From Bacteriovoracaceae bacterium (GTDB lineage Bacteria > Bdellovibrionota > Bacteriovoracia > Bacteriovoracales > Bacteriovoracaceae), in assembly GCA_016784965.1 (NCBI GenBank), contig JADHTQ010000035.1:1-48265 (forward strand): a DNA stretch of 48,265 nt, in the 5' to 3' direction. The translations under genes were made by a program, and so were the position numbers. Each line of letters begins with the position of its first letter. Within the stretch, counting starts at the first letter, position 1. Shown piece by piece: positions 22,364 to 46,429 of the stretch. Below the pieces are notes generated by a model, which saw only the letters and a list, made by a program, of their open reading frames with translations, was not told where the DNA came from and did not search any database.

Positions 22364-24883
22364 ATGGCAAATTTTAAAGAAATGTCTAATGCCCCAGTTG
22401 GAAGCAAATTTATTTTACAAGGTAATACAGCATTTGCTCTAGGAGTTATCGGTGCCGGATACCATGCAGCTGACGGTTATCCTGGCACTCCTAGTACAGA
22501 GGTAATTGATAAGGGGTTGGCACTAGTTCAAGATAAAATTCAAGTTGGATGGTCTGTCAATGAAGCTGTGGCCTACGCATTGGCGATAGGCCGCTCAATT
22601 GCAGGCCATGACACTGTTGTCACAATGAAAGTTCCAGGTGTTTTTCAAGCTGGCGACGCAATTACGACATCTGCTTTCTACACCGGTAGTGCGGGCGCTT
22701 TAGTAATATATGTAGCTTCTGACTATGTACCATCTAGTACTCAGCACGTAATTGATGCTAGATATTTTTTTGCTTCCTCAAGAATTCCTGTGTTAGAACC
22801 AAAAGACCACCAGCAAATGTATGATATTGCCTGGCATGCGGCAGATATGAGTAGAGAGTTTAATACACCTGTTGTCGTTTTAGCTTCAGGTATTTTGGCC
22901 CATAGTGAAGGAATTGTTGTAACTAAAAAAACACGAAAGGTCTCTCCAAGGGAGTTACCTCCCAATCTACACGACTGGATGTTGCTGCCAAAAAAAGCAC
23001 GGGATAACTATAATCGAGTTAATTTAGAGAGAATCCCAGGTATACAAAAAAAACTTGAGAACTCACAAACTCTTGTTCATCAAGTGGATGGAAGCAGTCG
23101 TTGGGGAATTATAACTTCTGGAGCAAGTACAACAGTAGTTAAAGAGGCATTAGCAGTTGTAGGGGCAAATCCCTCCCTTTTATCCGTAACGTGTACTTAT
23201 CCTATCCCCGAAAAAAGCATTCGATCATTTGCCGAAAAAATAAGTGGGAAGATTTTTGTAATTGAAGATGGTGATAAATTTCTACAGGAAAAAATACAGT
23301 TATTAGGTATAGAAGTTATAGGAAAGAAAACCCCCAGTGTTCTTACCCACTGGACTCCAGAAGCTGTTATCAATTTGTTAGCTGAAAATGTCGATATCAA
23401 ATATAACTACATCAAAAGAAACACTTCACTTCAACCTGTAAACAGACCACCAGCAATTTGTCCAGGATGCCCATACCGAGCTTTTGGGCAAGTGGTTTCC
23501 AAACTTAAAAAGCAAAAAAAGCTCTACGCCTCTTTTGGAGACATCGGTTGCTCTACCCTTTTATATTTTCTGGATGCAATTGATACTGTATTGTGCATGG
23601 GCGCTTCAGATTCTATACGACAAGGTATGGTTTTATCTCGTCCCGACATGAGTTGCCGAACCATCAGTGTCATTGGCGACTCTTGTGAATGTCACTCTGG
23701 CCTTGATTCTACTCGAAACGCCGTTTTTAGAAATGTGGCGGGAGTAAAAGTAATTTTAGATAACCAAATAACTGCTATGACTGGAGGCCAAAGGGCCCCT
23801 AGTTCAAACACCAATTTAGCAAATGAGAGCAATCGATTCAATTTACAAAGGGTAGTGAGTGCTGAAAATGAGAGAACTATAGTTGTCGAAGCATTTGATG
23901 TAGCAGCTATTGAAAAGGAGTTAAAGCAGGCACTCAAATTGGCAGAAAAGGGAGAGTTTTCCACCCTCATTATTGAAGGCCCCTGTATTTCTGAAATTGA
24001 TAATAGTAAAAAAATGAGACAAGTTGAGCTTGATTATAACAAGTGTAAGCTATGTGGATTATGCGATATCTGCCCTGGTATTGAGCTTGATGAAAATAAG
24101 AGACCTAGTTTTACCAATATGTGCACCAATTGTGGTTCTAACTCACAGGTATGCATGCAAAAATGTCCATTTAATGCGATAGTATCAAAAGCTTCAGATA
24201 AATTAGACACTGGCCTAAAACTATTACCACTTGACCTAAAAGAACTTAACAGCATTGACCAAATAGACAAAAGCACTCTACCCGAATCCTTAAGGTTAGC
24301 TATTAGAGGTATTGGAGGCCAGGGTAATCTCTTTTTTGGAAAAGTGTTATCCAAAGTTTTCTTAAATACTCCCTACTGTGAAGATAATATTGTAAAAGGT
24401 GACACCCATGGTATGGCGCAATTGGGTGGGGCAGTTATTTCAACATTTAGTTGTGGAAATGTACATTCCTCGATACCTGCACCTGGATCATTTGATGTAC
24501 TTGTCGTAATGGAGTCATCAGAAGTTTTAAGACCTGGATTTTTAAACTTATTAAAACCAGATGGAGTAGTTTTATTAAACCAATTTTCAGTTTTGCCACC
24601 CAATGTGAAGTTAACTGAGTATCCTCAGGTTGGCGAGATTGAGAAAATGCTTACGGATATAAACCTCATTAAAATAAATGCTCTAGAGGTCGCAAGAGGT
24701 TTTGGAGACGAAATTGGTATGACTTCCAATGTAGTTGTCTTAGGGCTTTTATCTACCATTGCACCTTTTAATTTAATTCCAGAGAATGTGTGGCTAAATG
24801 CTTTGATGTCTTTATCTCCCAACGAGAGATTTAAGTCCGCAAACTTTACTGCATTTAAAGAAGGGAGAAAATATGATCGTTGA
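22364..24883 (+). CDS. Indolepyruvate:ferredoxin oxidoreductase, alpha-ferredoxin-beta fusion
   Basis: An 839-residue fusion of IorA and IorB. Residues 1-360 are the 2-oxoacid:ferredoxin pyrimidine-side and transketolase-like part (GYPGTPSTEV near the start); CPGCPYRAF (about 364), GDIGCSTL (about 392), GDSCECHSGLD (about 437) and DNQITAMTGGQ (about 466) are the thiamine-diphosphate domain. Two 4Fe-4S motifs follow (CKLCGLCDICP near 560 and CTNCG with CMQKCP near 586), then the gamma domain IRGIGGQGNLFFGK (about 647 on). The known reaction is aryl-pyruvate + CoA + oxidised ferredoxin to arylacyl-CoA + CO2 + reduced ferredoxin. GAGG lies seven bases before the ATG. It is coupled to the ADP-forming synthetase downstream by an 11-base overlap. 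Confidence 0.93.
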   Translation: MANFKEMSNAPVGSKFILQGNTAFALGVIGAGYHAADGYPGTPSTEVIDKGLALVQDKIQVGWSVNEAVAYALAIGRSIAGHDTVVTMKVPGVFQAGDAITTSAFYTGSAGALVIYVASDYVPSSTQHVIDARYFFASSRIPVLEPKDHQQMYDIAWHAADMSREFNTPVVVLASGILAHSEGIVVTKKTRKVSPRELPPNLHDWMLLPKKARDNYNRVNLERIPGIQKKLENSQTLVHQVDGSSRWGIITSGASTTVVKEALAVVGANPSLLSVTCTYPIPEKSIRSFAEKISGKIFVIEDGDKFLQEKIQLLGIEVIGKKTPSVLTHWTPEAVINLLAENVDIKYNYIKRNTSLQPVNRPPAICPGCPYRAFGQVVSKLKKQKKLYASFGDIGCSTLLYFLDAIDTVLCMGASDSIRQGMVLSRPDMSCRTISVIGDSCECHSGLDSTRNAVFRNVAGVKVILDNQITAMTGGQRAPSSNTNLANESNRFNLQRVVSAENERTIVVEAFDVAAIEKELKQALKLAEKGEFSTLIIEGPCISEIDNSKKMRQVELDYNKCKLCGLCDICPGIELDENKRPSFTNMCTNCGSNSQVCMQKCPFNAIVSKASDKLDTGLKLLPLDLKELNSIDQIDKSTLPESLRLAIRGIGGQGNLFFGKVLSKVFLNTPYCEDNIVKGDTHGMAQLGGAVISTFSCGNVHSSIPAPGSFDVLVVMESSEVLRPGFLNLLKPDGVVLLNQFSVLPPNVKLTEYPQVGEIEKMLTDINLIKINALEVARGFGDEIGMTSNVVVLGLLSTIAPFNLIPENVWLNALMSLSPNERFKSANFTAFKEGRKYDR

Positions 24884-26942
24884 TCAACTAATAAATCCAA
24901 AATCTATTGTCGTCGTAGGTGGATCTAATGATACCGCAAAAATTGGTGGAAAAATATTAAAGAACTTACTCCTAGGGGGTTTTGAGGGTGACTTAAGTGT
25001 CGTCAACCCTAAAGTAGATGCTGTACAAGGTATAAGGTGCTACCCCAATGTTGAACAAGTGAAAAGCAATATTAGTTTGGCAATAATTGCTTTACCTGCA
25101 AAATTTGTCAAAGATTCAATTGATGTACTTGCTAATAAAAAAGGAGTAAAGGCCTTTATCGTCTTTAGTGCTGGATTTAGTGAGGTAGGCGATGATGGAC
25201 GCAAACTTGAACAAGAGATTGTTGATATAATTAATAAAAACAATGCCTCATTAATTGGGCCAAACTGTATCGGAGTGATCACTCCATATTATAACGGGGT
25301 ATTTGCAGGACCAATCCCTCAGCTAAATCCCCAGGGAATAGATTTTGTAAGCGGCTCAGGTGCAACGGCAGCCTTCATAATTGAAAAGGGCATTCCTATG
25401 GGGCTTTCATTTTCAAGTTTGTTCTCCGTGGGAAATAGCGCTCAGATTGGAATTGAGGAAGTTGTAAAACATTGGGATGAAACTTTTGATGCAAACAATA
25501 GCTCCAAAATCAAACTACTTTATTTAGAAAATATTGAAAAACCAAAACTATTACTAAAACACGCTTCATCTCTAATTAAAAAAGGATGTAAAATTGCTGC
25601 CATTAAATCAGGTTCTTCCGAAGCTGGAATGCGAGCCGCTTCATCTCACACCGGTGCTTTAGCTGGCCCAGATCTGGCAGTAGGAGCCCTTTTTGCAAAA
25701 GCGGGCATAGTTAGATGTTTTGGGCGGGAGGAGTTAATATTAGCTGCTGCCATCTTTACACATAAGAGTCTAAAAGGAAAAAATTTGGCCATTATAACCC
25801 ATGCTGGAGGTCCAGGAGTTATGTTGACCGATACCCTCTCTCATGGTGGAGTAAAAATTCCAAAAATTGAAGGTGAGTATGCCGATGAACTTTTAAGCAA
25901 ACTGTATCCCGGCTCTTCAGTAGCAAATCCCATAGATTTTTTGGCCACAGGAGATGCCAAACAACTGGGAACCATAATTGATTATGTAGATACAAAATTT
26001 GATAACATTGACGGCATGGCAGTAATTTTCGGATCACCAGGACTGTTTAATGTCTCTGATGTGTATAAGGTAATTCATGAAAAAATGGACAGTTGCTCCA
26101 AACCAATATTTCCCATACTGCCTTCAATAGTTACTGCAAAAAAAGAAGTTGAGTACTTCAAATCACTAGGACGCACTTGTTTTTCTGATGAAGTCACATT
26201 TGGAAATGCTCTACTTAAAGTTTTAGATGCCAATACCCCAAAAGAACAAATTGAGTCTGCAGTTGTTAACAAAAGTCAAATTAGAGATATCATAGACAAT
26301 GCCCAAGACGGCTATATCTCACCAGAGGAGATTCAAAAACTTCTCGATGCAGCAGGTATTCCACGGACTCATGAAATTGTGACAAATGTTTTGGCCGATG
26401 CAATTTCTGGGGCAAACAAATTAAAGTATCCTGTAGTAATGAAAGTGGTAGGCCCCTTACATAAAACAGATGTCGGAGGGGTGGTATTAAATGTAAAAAA
26501 TGATGAAATGCTTCGCTCCACATTTGATAAATTAATGACAATTAAAGATGCAACATCTGTGTTAATTCAACCAATGGTACAAGGCATGGAATTATATGTC
26601 GGAGCCAAGTATGAACAAAATTATGGGCACCTAATATTATGCGGGCTTGGAGGGGTATTTATTGAAGCTCTAAAAGATGTCTCTCACGCATTGGGCCCAG
26701 TAGACCACAAACAAGCTATTTCAATGATAAAAGAGTTAAAAAGCTATCAAATCATTCAGGGCATGAGGGGTAGCGAAGGTGTAGATGAATCCAAGTTTGC
26801 CGATATAGTAGTAAAACTGTCGGGTTTGCTTGAAGCTGCTCCAGAGATAGATGAACTTGACTTAAACCCACTACTAGGCACTAAAGAGCAAGTGATAGCA
26901 GTAGACGCAAGAATCAAAATTTGTAAATCGGCACCTAGCTAA
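24873..26942 (+). CDS. ADP-forming acyl-CoA synthetase (acetate--CoA ligase, ADP-forming family)
   Basis: A 689-residue single-chain enzyme with the alpha part (CoA-binding Rossmann fold, IVVVGGSNDTAKIGGKILKN at the start, and SSHTGALAG near residue 258 holding the phospho-histidine) followed by the beta/ATP-grasp part (YPVVMKVVGPLHKTDVGGV near residue 530 with the second histidine). The family converts acyl-CoA + ADP + Pi to acid + CoA + ATP. Placed in an overlapping operon with an indolepyruvate oxidoreductase, an arylacetyl-CoA substrate is likely, but acetyl- or branched acyl-CoA is also possible. The ATG has GGAG five bases upstream, inside the previous gene. Confidence 0.92.
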   Translation: MIVDQLINPKSIVVVGGSNDTAKIGGKILKNLLLGGFEGDLSVVNPKVDAVQGIRCYPNVEQVKSNISLAIIALPAKFVKDSIDVLANKKGVKAFIVFSAGFSEVGDDGRKLEQEIVDIINKNNASLIGPNCIGVITPYYNGVFAGPIPQLNPQGIDFVSGSGATAAFIIEKGIPMGLSFSSLFSVGNSAQIGIEEVVKHWDETFDANNSSKIKLLYLENIEKPKLLLKHASSLIKKGCKIAAIKSGSSEAGMRAASSHTGALAGPDLAVGALFAKAGIVRCFGREELILAAAIFTHKSLKGKNLAIITHAGGPGVMLTDTLSHGGVKIPKIEGEYADELLSKLYPGSSVANPIDFLATGDAKQLGTIIDYVDTKFDNIDGMAVIFGSPGLFNVSDVYKVIHEKMDSCSKPIFPILPSIVTAKKEVEYFKSLGRTCFSDEVTFGNALLKVLDANTPKEQIESAVVNKSQIRDIIDNAQDGYISPEEIQKLLDAAGIPRTHEIVTNVLADAISGANKLKYPVVMKVVGPLHKTDVGGVVLNVKNDEMLRSTFDKLMTIKDATSVLIQPMVQGMELYVGAKYEQNYGHLILCGLGGVFIEALKDVSHALGPVDHKQAISMIKELKSYQIIQGMRGSEGVDESKFADIVVKLSGLLEAAPEIDELDLNPLLGTKEQVIAVDARIKICKSAPS

Positions 26943-33973: not shown

Positions 33974-34646
33974 ATTTTTATTTTTTCTGATCATTCAAAT
34001 TATCTCTACAAATATTGGCGCCCAGGTCATTGAACCATTTTCTATGGATGATTGCCTAAAAAGCTCTTTTTCTCTAGTCACTGTTTCTCACAAGGGTAGC
34101 CCTTTTGGTATGCATGATATTGTCTTAAAGGCAGAAAAAAAAGTCTGTGACATTTCAATCATGCATGAACAATATAAATGGGTAAAATCCAAGTGGCACA
34201 TTGATGTTTGTAGAGGACCCGTTCACATAAAATATGGAACAGACGCAGTAACCGTATTCAAAAGAAGATTACCCTGTAACCAAGATAGAAGTAGTGATTT
34301 TTGTAAATCATACAAAACATTAATGTTACGTTTACAAGATGATGGGCTGATTTTTGCCAAGGGAGAAAAAGAAGACATAACATCAGATCATGGTAAATTA
34401 AACTGTTCATTTGAACTGATAGATTTATACCTCGGTACTGGTACAATACTAAGTCGGCACAAAGAATACCCCTCTTTTATACCTACGATTAACACAATTG
34501 AAAAGCCTACAATAAATTACCCTTCTCCAACTTTGCCAAATGTTCCCAAAGAACAAGAACCTAGGGAACCTATTGAAAGGGTCGAAGTTCCCCAACCAGA
34601 AGAAATTAAAGCACCCGCTGTTGAAGTTAAAGATGGGGAGTTTTAG
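33954..34646 (+). CDS. Small secreted protein coupled to the pseudophosphatase, unknown family
   Basis: About 230 residues with a signal peptide (LLCRYKFLFFLIIQIISTNIGA) and five or six cysteines in the mature part, suggesting a disulfide-bonded periplasmic or outer-membrane domain; the last 60 residues are Pro/Glu-rich and probably disordered. The frame can start at TTG 33945, but the ATG at 33954 has GAGG nine bases upstream and is preferred. It begins inside the end of the pseudophosphatase gene and its 3' end overlaps the convergent ArsA-like gene by 20 bases. No family was recognised. Confidence 0.75.
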   Translation: MLLCRYKFLFFLIIQIISTNIGAQVIEPFSMDDCLKSSFSLVTVSHKGSPFGMHDIVLKAEKKVCDISIMHEQYKWVKSKWHIDVCRGPVHIKYGTDAVTVFKRRLPCNQDRSSDFCKSYKTLMLRLQDDGLIFAKGEKEDITSDHGKLNCSFELIDLYLGTGTILSRHKEYPSFIPTINTIEKPTINYPSPTLPNVPKEQEPREPIERVEVPQPEEIKAPAVEVKDGEF

Positions 34647-35700
34647 ACCATTGTTCAGATAATTTTTGTACTTGATGCACAGAATGCCAAGCCAAGACCT
34701 CGTTAAAACTAATACAATTAGAAAAGTGTTTCTTGGCATATTTTAGTAAATTTAGCTCTGTTTGTAGCATTGATTTTTTTAGTTGATAATCAGGTGAGCT
34801 CGCTTTTGGATGCCAATCATTTAGATGTGTACTGATACATTTGTTAATTAGAATATAGGAATCCTTATGAAAAAAGCTTTGTGCCTGGTCATGAATAGAT
34901 AAAGCTTCATCTATTTTTTGTTGGTCTGCAGAAGTAACTAAAAACCAATTTGAAAAAGTTTGTTGTTTCAAATTTTTCTGAAATGATAGCGATGACAAAA
35001 ACGAATCTTTGGACTTGTAAACAGACACCACTGCATTTATAAAATTATCGACAAATGATGCTCCAGTCACATGTTCTAAATAAGATAACAATTTTTTGAT
35101 CCCACTTTTAATAATAAGAGACACTACCTTTTTGCTTTTTTTTGCTTGCTCTGGTGTTGCAGCAGAAATGGGTTTGTTAAGGTATTTAAATATATCTAAA
35201 TAACTTTTATCAAAAAAAGCATTTATCTTTTTTGTTGCTATAAGAAAATCAATAAAGTGTTTTCCTGGGGGAGTATCCAAAACGATTGTATCATACACTT
35301 TACTTTGTAAATGATATTGTAGTTCCAATACAGACATTATTTCATTCATTCCACCATGTGGGCGAGCTAAAATTTTCAAAATCGGGTTGTTAAAATCGTT
35401 AATCAAATCGTGTTTTATACCCACACGATTAAGGGTAGTTTGTGGGGACATCAAAAGGGCATCAAATTTATAAGATACATCCTTATTAAAAACACTTGCA
35501 TCAATTGTCTGTATCACGCCTGCATTTTCTTCATCCAAATTTAATATCTCTTTTAACCTCTTTGCTGGATCAATAGTAATAACTAGTACCTTCAGTCCTT
35601 GTGAAGTAAGATAAAGCGCCCTCGACGTGGCTAAAGTTGTCTTGCCAACACCTCCTGTTCCACAAAATATTTCAATGGGTTTGCTTGGAATTTTTATCAC
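34627..35700 (-). CDS. ArsA/Get3-family ATPase, subunit lacking the signature lysine
   Basis: A 357-residue member of the ArsA/Get3 family. The Walker A is CGTGGVGKTTLAT (about residues 13-25), where the first lysine of the deviant Walker A (normally GKGGVGKT) is Thr. Later, VLDTPPGKHFIDFL corresponds to the switch II loop DTAPTGHT. A GTG start at 35700 overlaps the stop of the upstream ArsA-like gene as GTGA, so the two are translationally coupled. It is probably the partner of the next protein in a heterodimer. Arsenite transport is not implied; no arsB or arsR is nearby. Confidence 0.82.
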   Translation of the reverse strand: MIKIPSKPIEIFCGTGGVGKTTLATSRALYLTSQGLKVLVITIDPAKRLKEILNLDEENAGVIQTIDASVFNKDVSYKFDALLMSPQTTLNRVGIKHDLINDFNNPILKILARPHGGMNEIMSVLELQYHLQSKVYDTIVLDTPPGKHFIDFLIATKKINAFFDKSYLDIFKYLNKPISAATPEQAKKSKKVVSLIIKSGIKKLLSYLEHVTGASFVDNFINAVVSVYKSKDSFLSSLSFQKNLKQQTFSNWFLVTSADQQKIDEALSIHDQAQSFFHKDSYILINKCISTHLNDWHPKASSPDYQLKKSMLQTELNLLKYAKKHFSNCISFNEVLAWHSVHQVQKLSEQWSKTPHL

Positions 35701-36569
35701 ACTAACTTCTCCATTTTCTCTTCTAACTCACATATTATTTTCTTTTTACTCATGTATATCGAGTGGGGTAGTATTTGTGATATTTGCTTTGAGTATTTAG
35801 CCTGGATCTCCTGCTCAAATTTTATTTTTTCTTTTAGAAATGAAGGTAACGTTTCCATTTTTAAATTGCTTGTATTTACCAGTGAGTTGTTTAATACCAG
35901 GTCGATGTCAACAAAGTTATGGGATTGTAAAAAATTTTTTACTTCCATACCTTCATGAATGGCCAGAGGTGTGGGAAGAGTACAAACTATACCTTTGAAA
36001 AAGTTCGCAGAATACAATGATTTGTGCATCTTTTTTATATCGTTAGTCAATATTCCATCTTTACCAAACATCTCTTTAAAATTGTGAGGCGACTCTAGCA
36101 TTGCGATGGTATGTCCAGATGACGGGGAATCTAGGACAATAATAAGTTCTGGGTCCTTCATCAACTTATCAACAATATCTCCAAGCAGGATCATATCAGA
36201 TACCCCTGGCACCATATCAAAGATAGATTTGAAAAATGGAGTTTTTAAAATCCAAGATGCAATAAGTTTTGATCCCAGTTTATCAGCAATATAGGCCATC
36301 ACACTCTCTGCAATGTCTAATTGCTGATAACTAATTTTTAAATCTTTTGATAATTTATGGTCACCTCTTGAGGTAAAACAAATGTAATGGGCCTTCAAAC
36401 CACAGGACTTTAAGTAACGAGTTAGTGCCAAAGAAAGTGTTGTTTTACCAACGCCTCCTTTACCTGTTACAAAGTATAATCTGCTAAGATCATTAAAATG
36501 TGTAGCTTCCTGTGATGAGAAGTTTGAAGTATGATCCTTCAATGTCTGTTCCGATTTCTTGTTTGACAT
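35697..36569 (-). CDS. ArsA/Get3-family ATPase, subunit with intact signature lysine
   Basis: About 290 residues. The deviant Walker A GKGGVGKTTLSLAL (residues 36-49) is intact, including the signature lysine, and LDSPSSGHTIAML is the switch II region. The frame may start at TTG 36572, but ATG 36567-36569 is likely; either start lies inside the preceding beta-barrel gene (about 77 bases of overlap), and I see no strong ribosome binding site. Together with the Thr-variant partner downstream it suggests an asymmetric ATPase dimer, a pattern seen in other bacterial tandem ArsA pairs. Function unknown. Confidence 0.82.
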   Translation of the reverse strand: MSNKKSEQTLKDHTSNFSSQEATHFNDLSRLYFVTGKGGVGKTTLSLALTRYLKSCGLKAHYICFTSRGDHKLSKDLKISYQQLDIAESVMAYIADKLGSKLIASWILKTPFFKSIFDMVPGVSDMILLGDIVDKLMKDPELIIVLDSPSSGHTIAMLESPHNFKEMFGKDGILTNDIKKMHKSLYSANFFKGIVCTLPTPLAIHEGMEVKNFLQSHNFVDIDLVLNNSLVNTSNLKMETLPSFLKEKIKFEQEIQAKYSKQISQILPHSIYMSKKKIICELEEKMEKLV

Positions 36570-37167
36570 CAAAAGGATCGTGGTACTGACCTAAGACGCC
36601 GATAGTATAATGTTCATTCAATTTAAGGTCGACGCCTCCTCCAAAATGAAAACCGAAAGTAATTCTAGCAGTTGAAGTTACCCATCCTTGACTACCAATC
36701 TCTCTTCGAAGTCTGGGTCTGTAAAAACCTAGTCCCCCTACAACAAATGGAGAAAAAGAATCTAAGTGGAATAGTCTTGCTTTGATCCCAACAACTAACG
36801 CTGGGAGCTTTACATAACCGCTCTTAAAGCTATGTTTAGAGTAATGTAGATTTGCAATCATATCAAAGGAGTGACTCGCAGAATAACTGTAAATAACATC
36901 GAAGGTTATAGAGTCCACGGCTACATGCCTAAAATCACCTAGTAAAACAGTTTGCCCGACACCCAAACCAACAGAGTGTTTTCTTGTACCGTCTGGAATT
37001 CTTGGTTGTGCTCTATGAGGCTTGGAACTTCCCAGCTTTTTGGACATGTCCTGCGAAGTTATTTTTTGAATACTTGTTTTTGCTTCCTTACAAATTGCCT
37101 TGTTTCCGACCATTATTAACGCGAAAACAAGGCAATAAACTATCCTTACTGTGGAATTTTTTTTCAT
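36493..37167 (-). CDS. Outer-membrane beta-barrel protein
   Basis: A 224-residue protein with a signal peptide (about residues 1-26) and a mature part of alternating-residue strands (for example HSVGLGVGQTVLLGDF and TARITFGFHFGGGVDLKL) ending in Tyr-Thr-Phe, the terminal phenylalanine that the BAM complex reads. It is probably an eight-stranded barrel of OmpA/OmpW-like size. It lies between the PhaR-like regulator and the ArsA-like pair, and its 3' end overlaps the start of the second ArsA-like gene. Pore or structural role unknown. Confidence 0.75.
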   Translation of the reverse strand: MKKNSTVRIVYCLVFALIMVGNKAICKEAKTSIQKITSQDMSKKLGSSKPHRAQPRIPDGTRKHSVGLGVGQTVLLGDFRHVAVDSITFDVIYSYSASHSFDMIANLHYSKHSFKSGYVKLPALVVGIKARLFHLDSFSPFVVGGLGFYRPRLRREIGSQGWVTSTARITFGFHFGGGVDLKLNEHYTIGVLGQYHDPFDVKQEIGTDIEGSYFKLLITGSYTF

Positions 37168-40769: not shown

Positions 40770-42536
40770 ATGATGAAAAACATTACAACACTACTCACCG
40801 TTTTTGCTTTTATACTCGGTATTGGCGGTTGTACAAAAAAAGTTGATGTTAAAGAGAGAGTGTTAAATCTTGCTGTTGGGTCAAAAATCAAAGGTATGGA
40901 CCCAATTTATGCCAACGATAGATACTCAAGTAACGAGGTTGGTAGAGTTTATGAAGGTCTACTTGAGTATCACTACTTAAAAAGACCATACACACTAGTT
41001 CCAAATCTTGCTGAAGCAATGCCAGCAGTTTCTGCAGACGGTCTTACCTATACATTTAAAGTCAAAAAGGGCGTCTATTTTCACGACGACAAAGCTTTCA
41101 CAGACGGTAAAGGCAGAGAGCTTGTTGCAGAAGATTTCGTTTATTCAATTAAACGCTTGGCCGACCCAAAGCTTCAATCGCTTGGATGGTGGGTTCTTGA
41201 TGGAAAAATTAAAGGACTAAATGAATGGCGAAAGAAAAACTCTGCTCTTCCAAAAGTAAATTATGATGAGGTTGTTGAGGGAGTTAAGGCACTGGATCGA
41301 TATACAGTACAATTTAAGTTGAGCAAAAGTTTTCCACAATTTTTATACTCGCTGGCCATGACCTTTACCTTTGCAACTGCTAGGGAAGTAGTCGAGCATT
41401 ACGGTAAAGAATTTCTAAACCATCCAGTTGGAACTGGCGCATTTGTTCTACCAGAATTCAAGCAGAGTAATAAAATAATTTACACTAAAAACCCAAAATT
41501 TAGAAAGAAGCTGTACCCAAGTGAAGCTTCAGAAGAATTTAAGCAAAAGGGCTACTTAGCTGATGCAGGTAAACAGTTACCTTTGGTGGACAAGGTAGTC
41601 GTTCACATTATGGTTGAAGCGCAACCTAGATGGCTTAACTTCCAAAAAGGTAATATCGACTACTTAGGGATTCCAAAAGATAATTTTGCTTCAACGATTA
41701 CTCCAAGCAAAACCCTTACACCTGAGCAAAAGAAAAAGGGGTTGATACTTTCAATCACGCCATCTTTGGATATTACCTATATGGCTTTCAACAATGACTC
41801 TGATCTGTTCAAGAACATTAAACTCAGAAGAGCAATGAGTCTTGCTTACGATGTCAATAAGTCAAATGAACTATTTTACAATGGTACCGGTCTTCCCGCT
41901 CAGTCGGTAGTTCCTCCAGGTATTGCCGGAAACATTAAAGGCTACGTTAATCCTTACCGCGGAACCGATGTAGCAAAGGCCAAAGCACTACTTGTTGAAG
42001 CTGGTTACCCAGAAGGTAAAGGTCTTCCTGCCATTACTTACGATATTTCTGTCAGCACAGTTGCAAGGCAAATGGGTGAGTTTTTCAAAAAGCAAATGAA
42101 GGAAATTGGCATCAATATCAAAGTACAAGCAAATCCATGGCCAGAGCTACAAAAGAAAGTTGATACTAGGAAAGTTATGATGTACGGCATGGCTTGGGGC
42201 GCTGATTACCCAGATGCAGAAAACTTTCTACAACTTCTTTATGGACCAAATAAACCCCCAGGGCCAAACGGTTCTGGCTTTAACAATGAAGAGTTCAACC
42301 GACTTTATAAAGTGGCTTCTTTGATGCAAGATACTCCAGAAAGAACTGCTCTTTATGAAAAAATGAATAGAATGATTGCCGAAGAGATGCCAGTTATTTG
42401 GGGTCTACATAGACAGGACTATGTTCTATATCAGGGATGGCTAAAAAATTACATAAGATCAGACTTTGAAACTGGTCAGGTGCAATACTTGAATATGGAT
42501 ATTGAAAAGAAAAAGGCGCTACTTAGTAAATTCTAG
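40770..42536 (+). CDS. Peptide ABC transporter, substrate-binding lipoprotein
   Basis: A 588-residue family-5 extracellular solute-binding protein (DppA/OppA type), with signal peptide and lipobox IGGC (Cys 21). The start of the mature chain, NLAVGSKIKGMDPIYANDRYS, then LVPNLAEAMPAVSADGLTYTFKVKKGVYFHDD, is typical of the family. It delivers di- or oligopeptides to the permeases encoded next. Substrate length cannot be read from the sequence. The lipidated form is Gram-positive-like but also common in this lineage and may be held at the inner or outer membrane. Confidence 0.93.
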   Translation: MMKNITTLLTVFAFILGIGGCTKKVDVKERVLNLAVGSKIKGMDPIYANDRYSSNEVGRVYEGLLEYHYLKRPYTLVPNLAEAMPAVSADGLTYTFKVKKGVYFHDDKAFTDGKGRELVAEDFVYSIKRLADPKLQSLGWWVLDGKIKGLNEWRKKNSALPKVNYDEVVEGVKALDRYTVQFKLSKSFPQFLYSLAMTFTFATAREVVEHYGKEFLNHPVGTGAFVLPEFKQSNKIIYTKNPKFRKKLYPSEASEEFKQKGYLADAGKQLPLVDKVVVHIMVEAQPRWLNFQKGNIDYLGIPKDNFASTITPSKTLTPEQKKKGLILSITPSLDITYMAFNNDSDLFKNIKLRRAMSLAYDVNKSNELFYNGTGLPAQSVVPPGIAGNIKGYVNPYRGTDVAKAKALLVEAGYPEGKGLPAITYDISVSTVARQMGEFFKKQMKEIGINIKVQANPWPELQKKVDTRKVMMYGMAWGADYPDAENFLQLLYGPNKPPGPNGSGFNNEEFNRLYKVASLMQDTPERTALYEKMNRMIAEEMPVIWGLHRQDYVLYQGWLKNYIRSDFETGQVQYLNMDIEKKKALLSKF

Positions 42537-42555
42537 GATACGAGGTTAAAAAACT

Positions 42556-43497
42556 GTGAATATCTATATTTATACTATCAGACGGCTTTTATACGTAATT
42601 CCAGTTCTGCTTGGAGTTTGTTTTATCATCTTTTTTCTCTTTAATGTGGTATCTCCGGATCCCGCTAGAATGATGTTAGACAAACATGCGACCGTGAAAC
42701 AAATTGCAGAAATGAGGCATGAATTGGGGCTCGACCGACCCTTTTTCATGCAATATCTTGATGTGGTAAAATCTGCTTTTACTTTCAATTTCGGACGGTC
42801 TTGGTCAACGAGACAAGAGATCTCTGAAATGATTATGGATGGAGCAATACCCTCATTAAGCCTATCATTTCCCGCTTTTTTTCTTGCGACGCTTATATCA
42901 ATTTGTATATCCCTGTTTGTGTCTTTTTTTCGGGGCAAAGTTATCGACAGATTAGCGGTAATATTTTGCGTTGGCATGATGAGCGTTTCTAGTTTGGCCT
43001 ACATTTTATTTGGCCAGTGGTTTTTGGCCTATCACATGGGATTATTTGAAATTTCGGGGTATGAGTTTGGTTTTCCTTTCTTTATACCTTATGTGATTTT
43101 ACCAATAATCATCTGGATAATTCTATCTATTGGTCCCGATGTTCGATTTTATAGAACAGTAATTCTAGATGAAATATACCAGGATTACGTGAGGACCGCT
43201 AGGGCAAAGGGATTAAGTGAAATTGTGATTTTGTTTAAGCATGTCTTAAAAAATGCCATGATTCCGATTATTACTTATGTCGTAATTAGAATTCCTTTTT
43301 TAATTTTAGGGGCGCTTCTACTTGAGAGCTTTTTTAGTATCCCAGGACTTGGCGGAATTACTCTAGACGCTGTGAAATCCTCTGATTTTCCAGTACTTAA
43401 GGCCATGACTGTATTAAGCTCTATCGCATATATTACGTTTAGTGTCATTACTGATGTTCTGTACACCGTGGTTGATCCTAGGGTTAGACTAAAATAG
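42556..43497 (+). CDS. dppB: Peptide ABC transporter permease, DppB type
   Basis: A 313-residue inner-membrane permease with about six transmembrane segments. The EAA-type loop (DYVRTARAKGLSE, about residues 212-224) that contacts the ATPases is present, and the family C-terminus ends DVLYTVVDPRVRLK. The start is a GTG with GAGG about 11 bases upstream. It is the second gene of the operon, 20 bases after the binding protein. Confidence 0.93.
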   Translation: MNIYIYTIRRLLYVIPVLLGVCFIIFFLFNVVSPDPARMMLDKHATVKQIAEMRHELGLDRPFFMQYLDVVKSAFTFNFGRSWSTRQEISEMIMDGAIPSLSLSFPAFFLATLISICISLFVSFFRGKVIDRLAVIFCVGMMSVSSLAYILFGQWFLAYHMGLFEISGYEFGFPFFIPYVILPIIIWIILSIGPDVRFYRTVILDEIYQDYVRTARAKGLSEIVILFKHVLKNAMIPIITYVVIRIPFLILGALLLESFFSIPGLGGITLDAVKSSDFPVLKAMTVLSSIAYITFSVITDVLYTVVDPRVRLK

Positions 43498-43518
43498 AAG
43501 AAAGAAGGTTTATAAAAA

Positions 43519-44424
43519 ATGGAAAGTGCACAAACTGCAGATTTTTCTCAAAATACATCCAAGACAAAGGTGGCAAAATCTAAATCTCTTTGGCAACATG
43601 CATTCTCTAGTTTACTGAAAGACAAAATAGCAGTAATTGCTTTTAGTTTTGTGCTACTTTATGCTGTTGTTGCTCTAGGTGCTGGACTTGGCATTATTGC
43701 CAGCGACTGGACCAAAGAGATCGGCCCATCTTATGCTGCCCCCACTTTTAAATACATATTAGGTACTGATATCTTTGGTAGATCTGTTGCACTAAAAGCC
43801 ATCAAAGGAACCCAAGTTGCTATGTTGGTAGGTCTGTTTACTGCAATGCTATCCATCACTATTGGTGTTACTTTGGGCGCAATTGCCGGTTACTTTGGAG
43901 GTAGGATCGACGAGTTTATCGTATGGTTTTATACTACTTTCTCTTCAATACCGTACATCATGCTACTAATGACATTTGCATTTATCCTGGGCAAGGGGGT
44001 TACTTCCGTTTGCCTGGCACTGGGCTTAAGTAGCTGGGTGAGTCTTTGTAGGCTAATTCGTGGAGAGGTGATAAGGCATAAGGATCGAGAATACGTCCAT
44101 GCGGCGGCAGCTATTGGTGGAGGGGATTTTCGGAAGTTATTTTTGCACATTCTCCCCAATGTTTTCCACATTGTGATTATTAACTTTTCACTCACATTCC
44201 AAATGGCCATTAAATCAGAAGTTATTTTGTCTTACTTAGGAATTGGTGTTCAAGAATTGCCCAGTTGGGGTAGAATGATTGATGAGGCCAAGGATGAATT
44301 GGCCAGAGGTGTTTGGTGGCAGCTAGCGGCTGCGGCTTTGGCCATGTTTATAATTGTTTTAGCATTTAACCTCTTAGGGGACGCACTAAGAGATGCCTTA
44401 GATCCAAAATTGAAGGGTAAGTAG
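43519..44424 (+). CDS. dppC: Peptide ABC transporter permease, DppC type
   Basis: A 301-residue permease that pairs with the preceding one. It has the N-terminal DppC/OppC extension, GTDIFGRSVALKAIKGTQVAMLVG, the EAA loop (REYVHAAAAIGGGD) and the end LLGDALRDALDPKLKGK. About six membrane segments are visible. Its stop codon directly touches the ATG of the next gene. Confidence 0.93.
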   Translation: MESAQTADFSQNTSKTKVAKSKSLWQHAFSSLLKDKIAVIAFSFVLLYAVVALGAGLGIIASDWTKEIGPSYAAPTFKYILGTDIFGRSVALKAIKGTQVAMLVGLFTAMLSITIGVTLGAIAGYFGGRIDEFIVWFYTTFSSIPYIMLLMTFAFILGKGVTSVCLALGLSSWVSLCRLIRGEVIRHKDREYVHAAAAIGGGDFRKLFLHILPNVFHIVIINFSLTFQMAIKSEVILSYLGIGVQELPSWGRMIDEAKDELARGVWWQLAAAALAMFIIVLAFNLLGDALRDALDPKLKGK

Positions 44425-45420
44425 ATGGGCGAAAAAATTTTAGAAGTAACCGATTTAAAAGTGGAATTTAATACCGACCAGGGTCGAATTAATGCCGTTA
44501 AAGGTGTTAGTTTCGATGTATATAAAGGCAAAACATTGGGTATCGTAGGTGAGTCTGGATCTGGAAAATCAGTCAGTGCCTTATCTATAATGCGCCTGAT
44601 TCCTGATCCTCCCGGAAGAATAGTTGGTGGCAAGGCTTTATTTAAAGGTCAAGATTTACTACAAATTCCAATGAATAAAATGAGAAACATTCGCGGTAAT
44701 AAAATTGCGATGATTTTTCAAGAACCAATGACCTCCTTAAATCCCGTATTTACCTGTGGGAGTCAAATTGAAGAGGTTTTGGCCATTCACCAGATGCAGC
44801 TAACCAAGCAGCAAAGAAAGAATAAAGCCGTTGAGTTACTTGACTTAGTCGGGATTCCAGCACCAGAAAAACGTATAAAAGAATACCCTCATCAACTCTC
44901 TGGAGGTATGCGACAAAGAGTAATGATCGCCATGTCGCTGGCCTGCGAGCCAGATATTCTTATTGCAGATGAGCCAACTACTGCCTTAGACGTGACAATT
45001 CAGGCCCAAATTTTAGAGTTAATGCATTCTTTGCAGAAAGAATTAGGTATGGGACTCATCATGATAACCCATGACCTGGGTGTTGTCGCTGAAGTTTGTG
45101 ATGACGTATCGGTCATGTATTGTGGCAAAATCGTCGAAGCGGCAGATGTAAGAACTCTTTTTACTCGGCCCAAACATCCATATACTAAAGGTCTTATAAA
45201 TTCTATTCCCTCATATGACGCTACTGATGAAGGGGAAAAAGAACGTCTTCAGACAATTAGAGGGATGGTTCCCTCTCTTTTTGACTTGCCTACAGGTTGT
45301 AGCTTTCAAGATCGTTGTGATTTTGCAAGTGATAAATGCAGGGGATTTGATGGGAATCCAATTTTGAAAAAGATCGCCGATGGACATGAAGTGTCTTGTT
45401 GGCATCCATTATCAAATTGA
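44425..45420 (+). CDS. dppD: Peptide ABC transporter ATPase, DppD type
   Basis: A 331-residue nucleotide-binding subunit. Walker A GESGSGKSVSALS, Q-loop FQEPMTSLNPVF, signature LSGGMRQRVMIAMS and Walker B ILIADEPTTALD are all intact, and the oligopeptide-specific C-terminal domain with four cysteines (a probable iron-sulfur or zinc site, CSFQDRCDFASDKCR plus CWHP) follows. The start touches the stop of dppC. Confidence 0.95.
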   Translation: MGEKILEVTDLKVEFNTDQGRINAVKGVSFDVYKGKTLGIVGESGSGKSVSALSIMRLIPDPPGRIVGGKALFKGQDLLQIPMNKMRNIRGNKIAMIFQEPMTSLNPVFTCGSQIEEVLAIHQMQLTKQQRKNKAVELLDLVGIPAPEKRIKEYPHQLSGGMRQRVMIAMSLACEPDILIADEPTTALDVTIQAQILELMHSLQKELGMGLIMITHDLGVVAEVCDDVSVMYCGKIVEAADVRTLFTRPKHPYTKGLINSIPSYDATDEGEKERLQTIRGMVPSLFDLPTGCSFQDRCDFASDKCRGFDGNPILKKIADGHEVSCWHPLSN

Positions 45421-45445
45421 TATTATCAGACATAGGATAAATAAC

Positions 45446-46429
45446 ATGAGTTCTGGAGAAAAATATTTATTAGAAGTACAAGGACTAACCAAGCGTTTCC
45501 CCGTCAGAGGTGGAATACTTGGAAGAGAGTTAACTGCCGTTAAAGCTGTAAATGATGTCAGCTTTGGGATTAAAAAAGGCGAAACCCTAGGTTTGGTTGG
45601 TGAATCTGGATGTGGCAAAACTACCCTTGGAAGGTGTATCTTAAGGCTAATAGAGCCCACAGCGGGAAAAATTCTCTATAATGGTGAAGATGTAATTCAG
45701 TTTGATAAAAACCAGATGAGAAGAATTAGAAGAAAAATGCAGATTATCTTTCAAGATCCCTATGCATCGCTAAATCCAAGAATGACTGTTGGAAGCATCT
45801 TGTCAGAACCAATGAATATACATCAACTCTTCCTTGAAAAAAATGAAAGAAAGAAAAGATTATACGAACTTTTAGACTGTGTGCACCTTCCCAAAGATGT
45901 ACTCAATAAATATCCCCACGAATTTTCTGGGGGACAAAGGCAGAGGATCTGTATTGCCAGGGCCCTTGCTGTTGAGCCAGAATTTATTGTTTGTGATGAG
46001 CCAGTCTCGGCGTTGGACGTTTCAGTTCAGGCCCAAGTCGTCAATCTTTTGATGGATCTACAAAAAGAGTTGGGTCTTACATACTTGTTTATCGCCCATG
46101 ATTTAAAAGTTGTTGAGTATATTTCTTCGCGAGTAGCCGTTATGTATTTGGGCCATACTGTTGAGTTGGCTTCATCAAGTGAGCTATATGGTGCCTCAAA
46201 GCATCCATACACAAAGGCCCTATTTTCAGCAATTCCCAAGCCTGATCCAATAAACAAACAAGAGCGGATTATCTTACAGGGAGACCTACCAAGCCCCATG
46301 AATCCACCCAATGGGTGTCATTTTCACCCTAGGTGTTGGCTGAAATCCGATCTTTGCCTAAAAGATTACCCAAACGTTACAAAGCAGAGTCACTCTCATG
46401 AATTTCGCTGTTTTCATCCAACTGCATAA
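45446..46429 (+). CDS. dppF: Peptide ABC transporter ATPase, DppF type
   Basis: About 327 residues. Walker A GESGCGKTTLGRC, Q-loop FQDPYASLNPR, signature FSGGQRQRICIARAL and Walker B FIVCDEPVSALD are intact; the C-terminal motif CHFHPRCWLKSDLC with CFHP follows. A longer frame starts at 45380, but the ATG at 45446 has AGGA eight bases upstream and lies just after the dppD stop, so it is the likely start. It closes the five-gene importer operon. Confidence 0.95.
   Translation: MSSGEKYLLEVQGLTKRFPVRGGILGRELTAVKAVNDVSFGIKKGETLGLVGESGCGKTTLGRCILRLIEPTAGKILYNGEDVIQFDKNQMRRIRRKMQIIFQDPYASLNPRMTVGSILSEPMNIHQLFLEKNERKKRLYELLDCVHLPKDVLNKYPHEFSGGQRQRICIARALAVEPEFIVCDEPVSALDVSVQAQVVNLLMDLQKELGLTYLFIAHDLKVVEYISSRVAVMYLGHTVELASSSELYGASKHPYTKALFSAIPKPDPINKQERIILQGDLPSPMNPPNGCHFHPRCWLKSDLCLKDYPNVTKQSHSHEFRCFHPTA

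Follow-up and report, generated by a model that had tools for sequence, protein, structure and literature searches.

We propose that two overlapping genes in the 48,265-nucleotide stretch of DNA analysed here (the window; contig JADHTQ010000035.1 of a Bacteriovoracaceae bacterium) form a catabolic energy module that would yield ATP and reduced ferredoxin from a 2-oxo acid derived from an amino acid, and we put the probability of this reading at roughly 0.6. The first gene (22364..24883, + strand) encodes a fused 2-oxoacid:ferredoxin oxidoreductase (OFOR) of 839 residues that joins an IorA-like thiamine pyrophosphate (TPP) part, a two-cluster ferredoxin segment and an IorB/POR-gamma-like part, and the second (24873..26942, + strand) encodes an ADP-forming acyl-CoA synthetase (ACD) of 689 residues in which the alpha and beta parts are fused. 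As the original prediction stated, the two reading frames overlap by 11 bases (ATGATCGTTGA, 24873..24883, + strand), and an AG-rich, Shine-Dalgarno-like stretch, read by eye, lies 5' of the ATG of each gene. The pairing is not chance, since the OFOR and ACD of a related genome, G063, are 63 and 64% identical to the window proteins and their genes have the same 11-base overlap. Linkage of the two genes in G063 is itself deduced, because a contig break interrupts its ACD gene; over ~34 residues the ends of the two contigs encode the same sequence but for one difference.

From the chemistry of the two families, an amino acid would be converted to its 2-oxo acid by a transaminase, the fused OFOR would use TPP and CoA to turn the 2-oxo acid into an acyl-CoA, CO2 and reduced ferredoxin, and the ACD, working through two histidines, would use the acyl-CoA with ADP and phosphate to make ATP, releasing CoA and the free acid. 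A membrane Rnf complex would then reoxidise the ferredoxin, at least in part, and add an ion gradient. We infer the direction of the reactions, the coupling to Rnf and the amino-acid origin of the substrate; a gain of ATP is favoured because the partner of the OFOR is ADP-forming. The role in making reduced ferredoxin and ATP that was originally predicted for the pair is coherent, and it is strengthened by the Rnf complex, by the VOR-, KOR- and AOR-like enzymes and by a host genome in which no heme-copper oxidase match was found (see below).

The Pfam domains POR_N, TPP_enzyme_C and POR are each found in the OFOR above the gathering score. The POR_N TPP domain (residues 29-190, 22448..22933, + strand) retains E67 and has altered GVFQA and ASDYVPSSTQ segments, while the TPP_enzyme_C domain (residues 394-530, 23543..23953, + strand) carries the diverged cofactor motif GDSCECHSG (residues 438-446, 23675..23701, + strand). 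These are followed by a segment with eight cysteines, C561-C601 (24044..24169, + strand), for which the Pfam domain search gave no ferredoxin match; all eight cysteines are invariant across the three fused proteins (those of the window, G063 and G059), and from their pattern two [4Fe-4S] sites are expected. The POR (IorB/gamma-like) domain completes the chain (residues 651-835, 24314..24868, + strand). A single polypeptide thus has the domain order of the indolepyruvate:ferredoxin oxidoreductases (IORs), namely the TPP alpha part, the two-cluster ferredoxin segment and the gamma/IorB part. Alignment shows that E67, C366, C369, C396 and C541 are common to IOR-type proteins, and we take these to be the catalytic Glu and the core Cys; with the Pfam domains, this Glu and the four Cys place the enzyme in the 2-oxoacid:ferredoxin oxidoreductase superfamily.

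Whether the enzyme uses indolepyruvate, as originally predicted, is less secure than its OFOR architecture. Its best NCBIfam matches are IOR_alpha and IOR_beta (TIGR03336/TIGR03334), as expected if it were a true IOR paired with an aryl-specific ACD, as in Pyrococcus, its divergence having no effect on the substrate. It fails both equivalog cut-offs, however, scoring 374.6 against 650.9 bits for alpha and 90.4 against 205.8 for beta, which speaks against that reading. The IOR_alpha cut-off is passed by five of the ten comparison proteins (Selenomonas, 711.2; Peptoclostridium, 761.9; Monoglobus, 709.4; G058, 668.8; G369, 782.3) and failed by the other five (Bacteroides, 519; G109, 557.2; the second copy in G000, the host genome of the window, 446.7; the fused proteins of G063, 357, and G059, 303.9). 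The Bacteroides and second G000 IorA-type proteins have no ferredoxin segment, which lowers their scores, whereas the three fused proteins score lowest of all 11 scanned though they span nearly the whole profile. A score of this kind is compatible with aryl substrates, since the Bacteroides IorA-type protein also falls short (519 of 650.9) and an IOR of B. thetaiotaomicron is reported to take part in the conversion of phenylalanine to phenylacetate (PMC13285125), although the Bacteroides protein scanned here need not be its ortholog.

The divergence was mapped in two alignments. Of the OFOR matches in the class, those at L010 (G128), L011 (G023), L012 (G103), L026 and L027 are outside these alignments, as are matches that have no locus, apart from a second copy each from G000 and G063. 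With three fused and 13 IOR-type proteins, 73 positions are conserved in both groups, and at 13 columns at least 12 of the 13 IOR-type proteins agree while the fused trio has a different state in common; these are 12 substitutions and one deletion, in the stretch after residue 401. When the fused proteins were set against 32 non-fused ones (14 IOR-type and 18 long IOR-family proteins), nine of the 12 substitutions proved unique to the trio (3/3 versus 0/32): P91, F94, Q95, Y121, G176, Y371, L400, C441 and E442. A further two, A68 and T126, are the residues of all 18 long IOR-family proteins, a point in favour of a true IOR, and D302 also occurs in two of the 14 IOR-type proteins. All 32 non-fused proteins have GDSTF where all three fused proteins have GDSCE, and the His of CxGCxH is present in 32/32 of the former and 0/3 of the latter; this motif criterion was drawn up from the proteins aligned here and is not a published one. 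In a tree of window residues 15-490, built with the 14 IOR-type, the three fused and five of the 18 long proteins, the fused proteins form one branch (support 100/100, length 2.95); as this group and that of the long proteins join through long branches, the exact place of the fused clade is unsure. The closest three bacterial IORs are 31-32% identical to the fused chain.

Judged on these alignments, the OFOR seems to be a complete, constrained enzyme in which the surroundings of conserved motifs have changed, and from the location of the substituted positions in known motifs we infer that they may contact the substrate. That the enzyme is nonetheless a true IOR, which would be a special case of the energy module and overlaps it in probability, seems to us a possibility with odds clearly under even, given the lowest scores and the nine fixed substitutions on the one side and the profile matches and the shared positions 68 and 126 on the other. 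An arylpyruvate is still the leading candidate substrate, at odds that we would set just short of even. This is weakened by the changed motifs, because of which another 2-oxo acid is possible, and helped by two features of the relatives: their linked aminotransferase has kin in an IOR cluster of Phocaeicola, and tryptophanase-family genes stand near the ACD in G060 and G061.

The ADP-forming assignment of the synthetase was supported. Its Pfam domains CoA_binding_2, CoA_binding, Succ_CoA_lig and ATP-grasp_5 each score above gathering, so that the CoA-binding, flavodoxin-like ligase and ATP-grasp domains of the family are all present, and both histidine motifs are in place. His259 of SSHTGALAG (25647..25649, + strand) is presumably the phospho-relay histidine of the alpha part, and His530 of LHKTDVGGV (26460..26462, + strand) matches the His conserved in solved beta parts, where we take it to be equivalent to His71 of the beta subunit. 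That residue is stated to be an active-site histidine of the beta subunit (PMC3942289). Structure matches comprise 14 sequences, including 2csu and 4xyl chains; among the alignments displayed, the first His is kept in three of three (2csu, 8wzu and 9y43) and the second in five of five (1wr2, 8wzu, 4xyl_B, 7cm9 and 9y43), and both are present in all seven aligned rows, window included. Alignment with the solved 4-hydroxybutyrate--CoA ligase [ADP-forming] 8wzu is nearly full length (E 2e-87). The window ACD is 56.5-64.2% identical to its four relatives in G059, G060, G061 and G063, which are 53.8-73.6% identical among themselves, and 54.4-55.4% identical to Bacteroides/Parabacteroides proteins annotated as acetate--CoA ligase.

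The acyl group is less certain than the family. The ACD scores below every named NCBIfam equivalog cut-off for acetate, hydroxybutyrate and hydroxypropionate ligases (352.7/1200, 343.4/1300, 323.5/567.15 and 265.8/1300). According to PMC3942289, acyl specificity in Pyrococcus furiosus is set by the alpha subunit, and ACS2 acts on aryl acids. Since the best NCBIfam names of the window ACD are acetate--CoA or hydroxyacyl-CoA ligases, the pair could be a pyruvate/acetyl-CoA or short-chain module in which the ACD is essentially acetate-forming and the substrate of the OFOR is pyruvate or some other aliphatic oxo acid. This would fit G063, which has a full pyruvate:ferredoxin oxidoreductase (PFOR) and gave no acetate kinase match when searched, so that its acetyl-CoA needs an outlet, and the GCYTLG of IORs is GCSTLL here, closer to the IGCSS of 6n2n_B, the beta subunit of a pyruvate ferredoxin/flavodoxin oxidoreductase. 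G000, however, encodes an acetate kinase (506.3 bits) as well as a distinct PFOR-like protein of 1535 residues that stays below cut-off, and the IOR domain order of the OFOR and the IOR-cluster kin of the relatives' aminotransferase point away from pyruvate; we regard the short-chain module as unlikely. The PFOR-like protein (G000:C20, L109:3273-7877) reaches 343.7 of 911.35 bits and runs ~370 residues beyond the PFOR profile length, and a 1549-aa open frame in G056 resembles it.

The original prediction proposed that the gene pair be searched for across the phylum; this was done for the fused OFOR across the class (129 genomes) and for the ACD across the phylum (368 genomes), and the pair proved rare. 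OFOR matches at E<=1e-30 occur in 49 of the 129 class genomes and close full-length fused proteins in three, namely G000, G063 (63% identical) and G059 (49%). ACD matches at E<=1e-100 occur in five of the 368 phylum genomes (G000, G059, G060, G061 and G063), all with one family code. A scan of a collection of genome contigs with the fused OFOR returned two weak relatives only, and a scan of viral contigs found no relatives.

An aminotransferase gene lies beside the pair in two relatives, G063 and G059. On the second contig of G063 it follows the ACD, its start touching the ACD stop, and the order in G059 is OFOR, aminotransferase (opposite strand), ACD. The ACD of G060 directly adjoins a gene of the tryptophanase/tyrosine phenol-lyase family (L054:7225-10857), and in G061 a proS-like gene, identified by eye, lies between the ACD and such a gene (L055:6449-11642). 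Neither genome has the fused OFOR: G060 has a distant two-gene IOR-type match only, and G061 has no OFOR match at E<=1e-30. Compared with the Bacteroides and Parabacteroides enzymes, the aminotransferases encoded by G063, G059, G060 and G061 (which has two copies) show 44.6-54.6% identity, and a 45%-identical one lies within a Phocaeicola cluster of IorA, IorB, aminotransferase, PaaK-like and ACT-like genes (the last two by eye); gene sharing with the Bacteroidota is plausible, with no donor or direction implied. Importer-like genes, seen by eye, start ~2.8 kb from the OFOR of G063, and their binding-protein gene has no NCBIfam match at E<=1e-40. Elsewhere in G063 (C110, L097) there is a microcompartment-like run of shell-protein-, aldehyde dehydrogenase-, deoxyribose-phosphate aldolase- and RnfC-like genes, again by eye. 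G127 (C64, L058:6562-10971) shows another layout of IOR and synthetase, with a ferredoxin-less IorA, IorB and then a 721-aa synthetase in which ATP-grasp comes first (beta-alpha).

Both enzyme families are reversible, and the pair could work in the opposite, biosynthetic sense, the ACD activating salvaged acids with ATP and the OFOR carboxylating the acyl-CoA to an oxo acid for amino acids. Such a use has been proposed for methanogen enzymes and suggested for the Bacteroides IOR (PMC13285125), and aroC of G059 is below cut-off and fragmented in a genome that is 84% complete. As one marker of the ordinary aromatic route, however, aroC is above cut-off in four of the five genomes searched, including G000 and G063, and the partner here is ADP-forming, whereas the ligase considered in connection with the reverse route is AMP-forming; biosynthetic use is decidedly improbable in our view.

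The catabolic reading also draws on the energy metabolism of the host. COX1 of the heme-copper oxidases is present in 122 of the 129 class genomes and was not found by the COX1 search in seven (G000, G060, G063, G083, G109, G121 and G126); among the 73 good-quality genomes the three without it are G000, G060 and G063. RnfC is above cut-off in six of the 129 (G000, G056, G063, G109, G126 and G127), and in G000 the genes rnfBCDGEA form an unbroken run, all six subunits scoring above a subfamily cut-off, which gives reduced ferredoxin an outlet. By Fisher tests, absence of COX1 is associated with the ACD (p = 0.00095), with the overlapping pair (p = 0.0025) and with RnfC (p = 0.00005), and the overlapping pair with RnfC (p = 0.0018), the two values for the pair resting on two genomes. 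The ferredoxin enzymes of G000 further include a VorB above cut-off, whose beta-gamma-like partner falls short of its cut-offs; a second, ferredoxin-less IorA/IorB; an AFOR-domain protein above the Pfam gathering scores; and a 2-oxoacid:acceptor alpha subunit above cut-off, which we label KOR-like, whose beta partner is just under (254.1 of 261.9) and which multihaem cytochromes adjoin. The host may be regarded as a putatively anaerobic lineage within a mostly oxygen-breathing group.

Several observations weigh against the energy module as we have drawn it. The search was for COX1, not cytochrome bd, which limits any conclusion that oxygen is not respired, and the Fisher tests were post hoc and treated related genomes as independent. 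G059 holds the OFOR and ACD, not adjacent, together with COX1 and no RnfC above cut-off, G061 likewise combines the ACD with COX1 and no RnfC above cut-off, in G060 neither COX1 nor an RnfC above cut-off was found, and in G056 and G127 Rnf occurs together with COX1. G000 has no close homolog of the aminotransferase linked to the pair in relatives (best match 27%, residues 33-271), and its AFOR-domain protein scores far too low for the AOR equivalog of NCBIfam (129.2, cut-off 868). The reversibility of ACD enzymes leaves the direction less constrained, and solved relatives of the ACD include, next to named ligases, a dimethylsulfoniopropionate lyase (7cm9), so that substrate and direction vary within the family.

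Two further loci of G000 are recorded here. Contig C72 (L113:457-6090) has a run of ferredoxin-like, VorB, beta-gamma-like OFOR, iron alcohol dehydrogenase and AFOR-domain genes, with the acetate kinase ~7 kb off on that contig, and contig C6 (L098:5892-11082) encodes a NuoE-like protein (by eye), a NuoF-like protein and a 956-aa protein with glutamate-synthase-small-subunit-like and NuoG-like parts, possibly an NAD(P)/ferredoxin electron-transfer complex.

The G000 assembly amounts to 4.59 Mb over 126 contigs (completeness 97.47%, contamination 3.78%), and a contaminant contig was considered as the source of the pair and dropped: the pair adjoins a divergent murC, the window also holds a murB-like gene (by eye), ftsA, ftsZ, rpoB, rpoC and EF-G, and the pair recurs in relatives. 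The original prediction also invoked a peptide importer; Opp/Dpp-like genes for a binding protein, two permeases and two ATPases are indeed in the window (40770..46429, + strand), lying ~14 kb downstream of the pair. Their matches are below curated cut-offs (for the two ATPases, among the matches listed), and the importer is a possible candidate supplier of peptides. A promoter scan found 12 sites against 14.5 expected from shuffling, no excess, and five terminator-like sites against 3.3 (sd 1.7) expected are nothing notable. On the - strand at 34627-36572 lie two adjoining ArsA/GET3-like ATPase genes with a 4-base overlap, whose matches to BagA/BagB and GET3/ArsA models are below cut-off.

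An OFOR near an ADP-forming ligase has already been reported in bacteria (PMC13285125), and the pairing itself is not new; the novelty lies in the divergent fused OFOR and in the putatively anaerobic lineage that carries it. According to a 2026 paper (PMC13200544), true anaerobes in the Bdellovibrionota were previously unknown and are now suggested. If the phylum is the Bdellovibrionota, the pair, together with Rnf and a genome without a heme-copper oxidase match, would offer a concrete, testable energy route for such anaerobes. The fused OFOR could represent a new specificity in a superfamily whose substrates are hard to predict. A bolder version, that the fused OFORs make up a subfamily apart, with a non-canonical oxo-acid specificity and a dedicated ACD, in a rare Rnf-bearing, heme-copper-oxidase-less lineage that ferments peptides, perhaps those of prey, by means of Pyrococcus-like ferredoxin enzymes, is to us somewhat unlikely; were it true and the phylum right, the host would be an anaerobe that ferments amino acids within a phylum otherwise noted for aerobic predators. 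Among the titles and abstract openings listed for the open-licence literature searched, none names this fused enzyme in this phylum.

AOR is present in Pyrococcus, and the host, G000, likewise has an AOR-like protein alongside VOR-like and KOR-like ones. The proposed module is most like the IOR and ACS2 of P. furiosus, which convert an oxo acid to acyl-CoA and reduced ferredoxin and then to the acid and ATP, alongside VOR and KGOR (PMC3942289), and the ferredoxin enzymes of the host resemble the kit of the peptide-fermenting Thermococcales. The P. furiosus ACS is an alpha2-beta2 enzyme, whereas the window encodes single fused OFOR and ACD chains in overlapping genes; the OFOR here has diverged, the proteins aligned with it being other than the P. 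furiosus IOR. Bacterial IORs that we examined have alpha and beta as separate genes, in contrast to the one chain here. The TIGR03336 IorA proteins of Selenomonas and Peptoclostridium share domain order and cofactor ligands with the fused OFOR, but they pass the IOR cut-off (711.2 and 761.9 bits) where it fails and has GDSCE for GDSTF. The partners also differ: the IOR genes of Selenomonas, Monoglobus and Bacteroides adjoin genes annotated as phenylacetate--CoA ligase, an AMP-forming enzyme, while the partner here is ADP-forming by domain, the Peptoclostridium IOR genes adjoin a phosphate acetyltransferase-like gene, and the Parabacteroides ones have neither beside them. An AMP-forming partner has been linked to possible biosynthetic use in Bacteroides (PMC13285125). 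The closest ACD outside the class in a plasmid collection, Bacteroides finegoldii WP_055279344.1 (55% identical over the full length), is called acetate--CoA ligase by annotation only and is not adjacent to an OFOR.

The original prediction described this route as best known from archaea, which is part of the story. As reported in PMC13285125, many IOR-cluster and VOR/HpdE-cluster sequences of the Peptostreptococcales have as neighbours either Pta and a kinase or an ADP-forming ligase; for cluster 2 (IOR) and cluster 3, the neighbours listed there include PF13607 ligases. A C. difficile ligase assayed in that work accepted phenylacetate, hydroxyphenylacetate and indoleacetate; its associated OFOR is Cd3c, a member of the VOR-holding cluster (PMC13285125). 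The Peptostreptococcales loci and the window pair nevertheless follow the same logic of an OFOR placed near an ADP-forming ligase.

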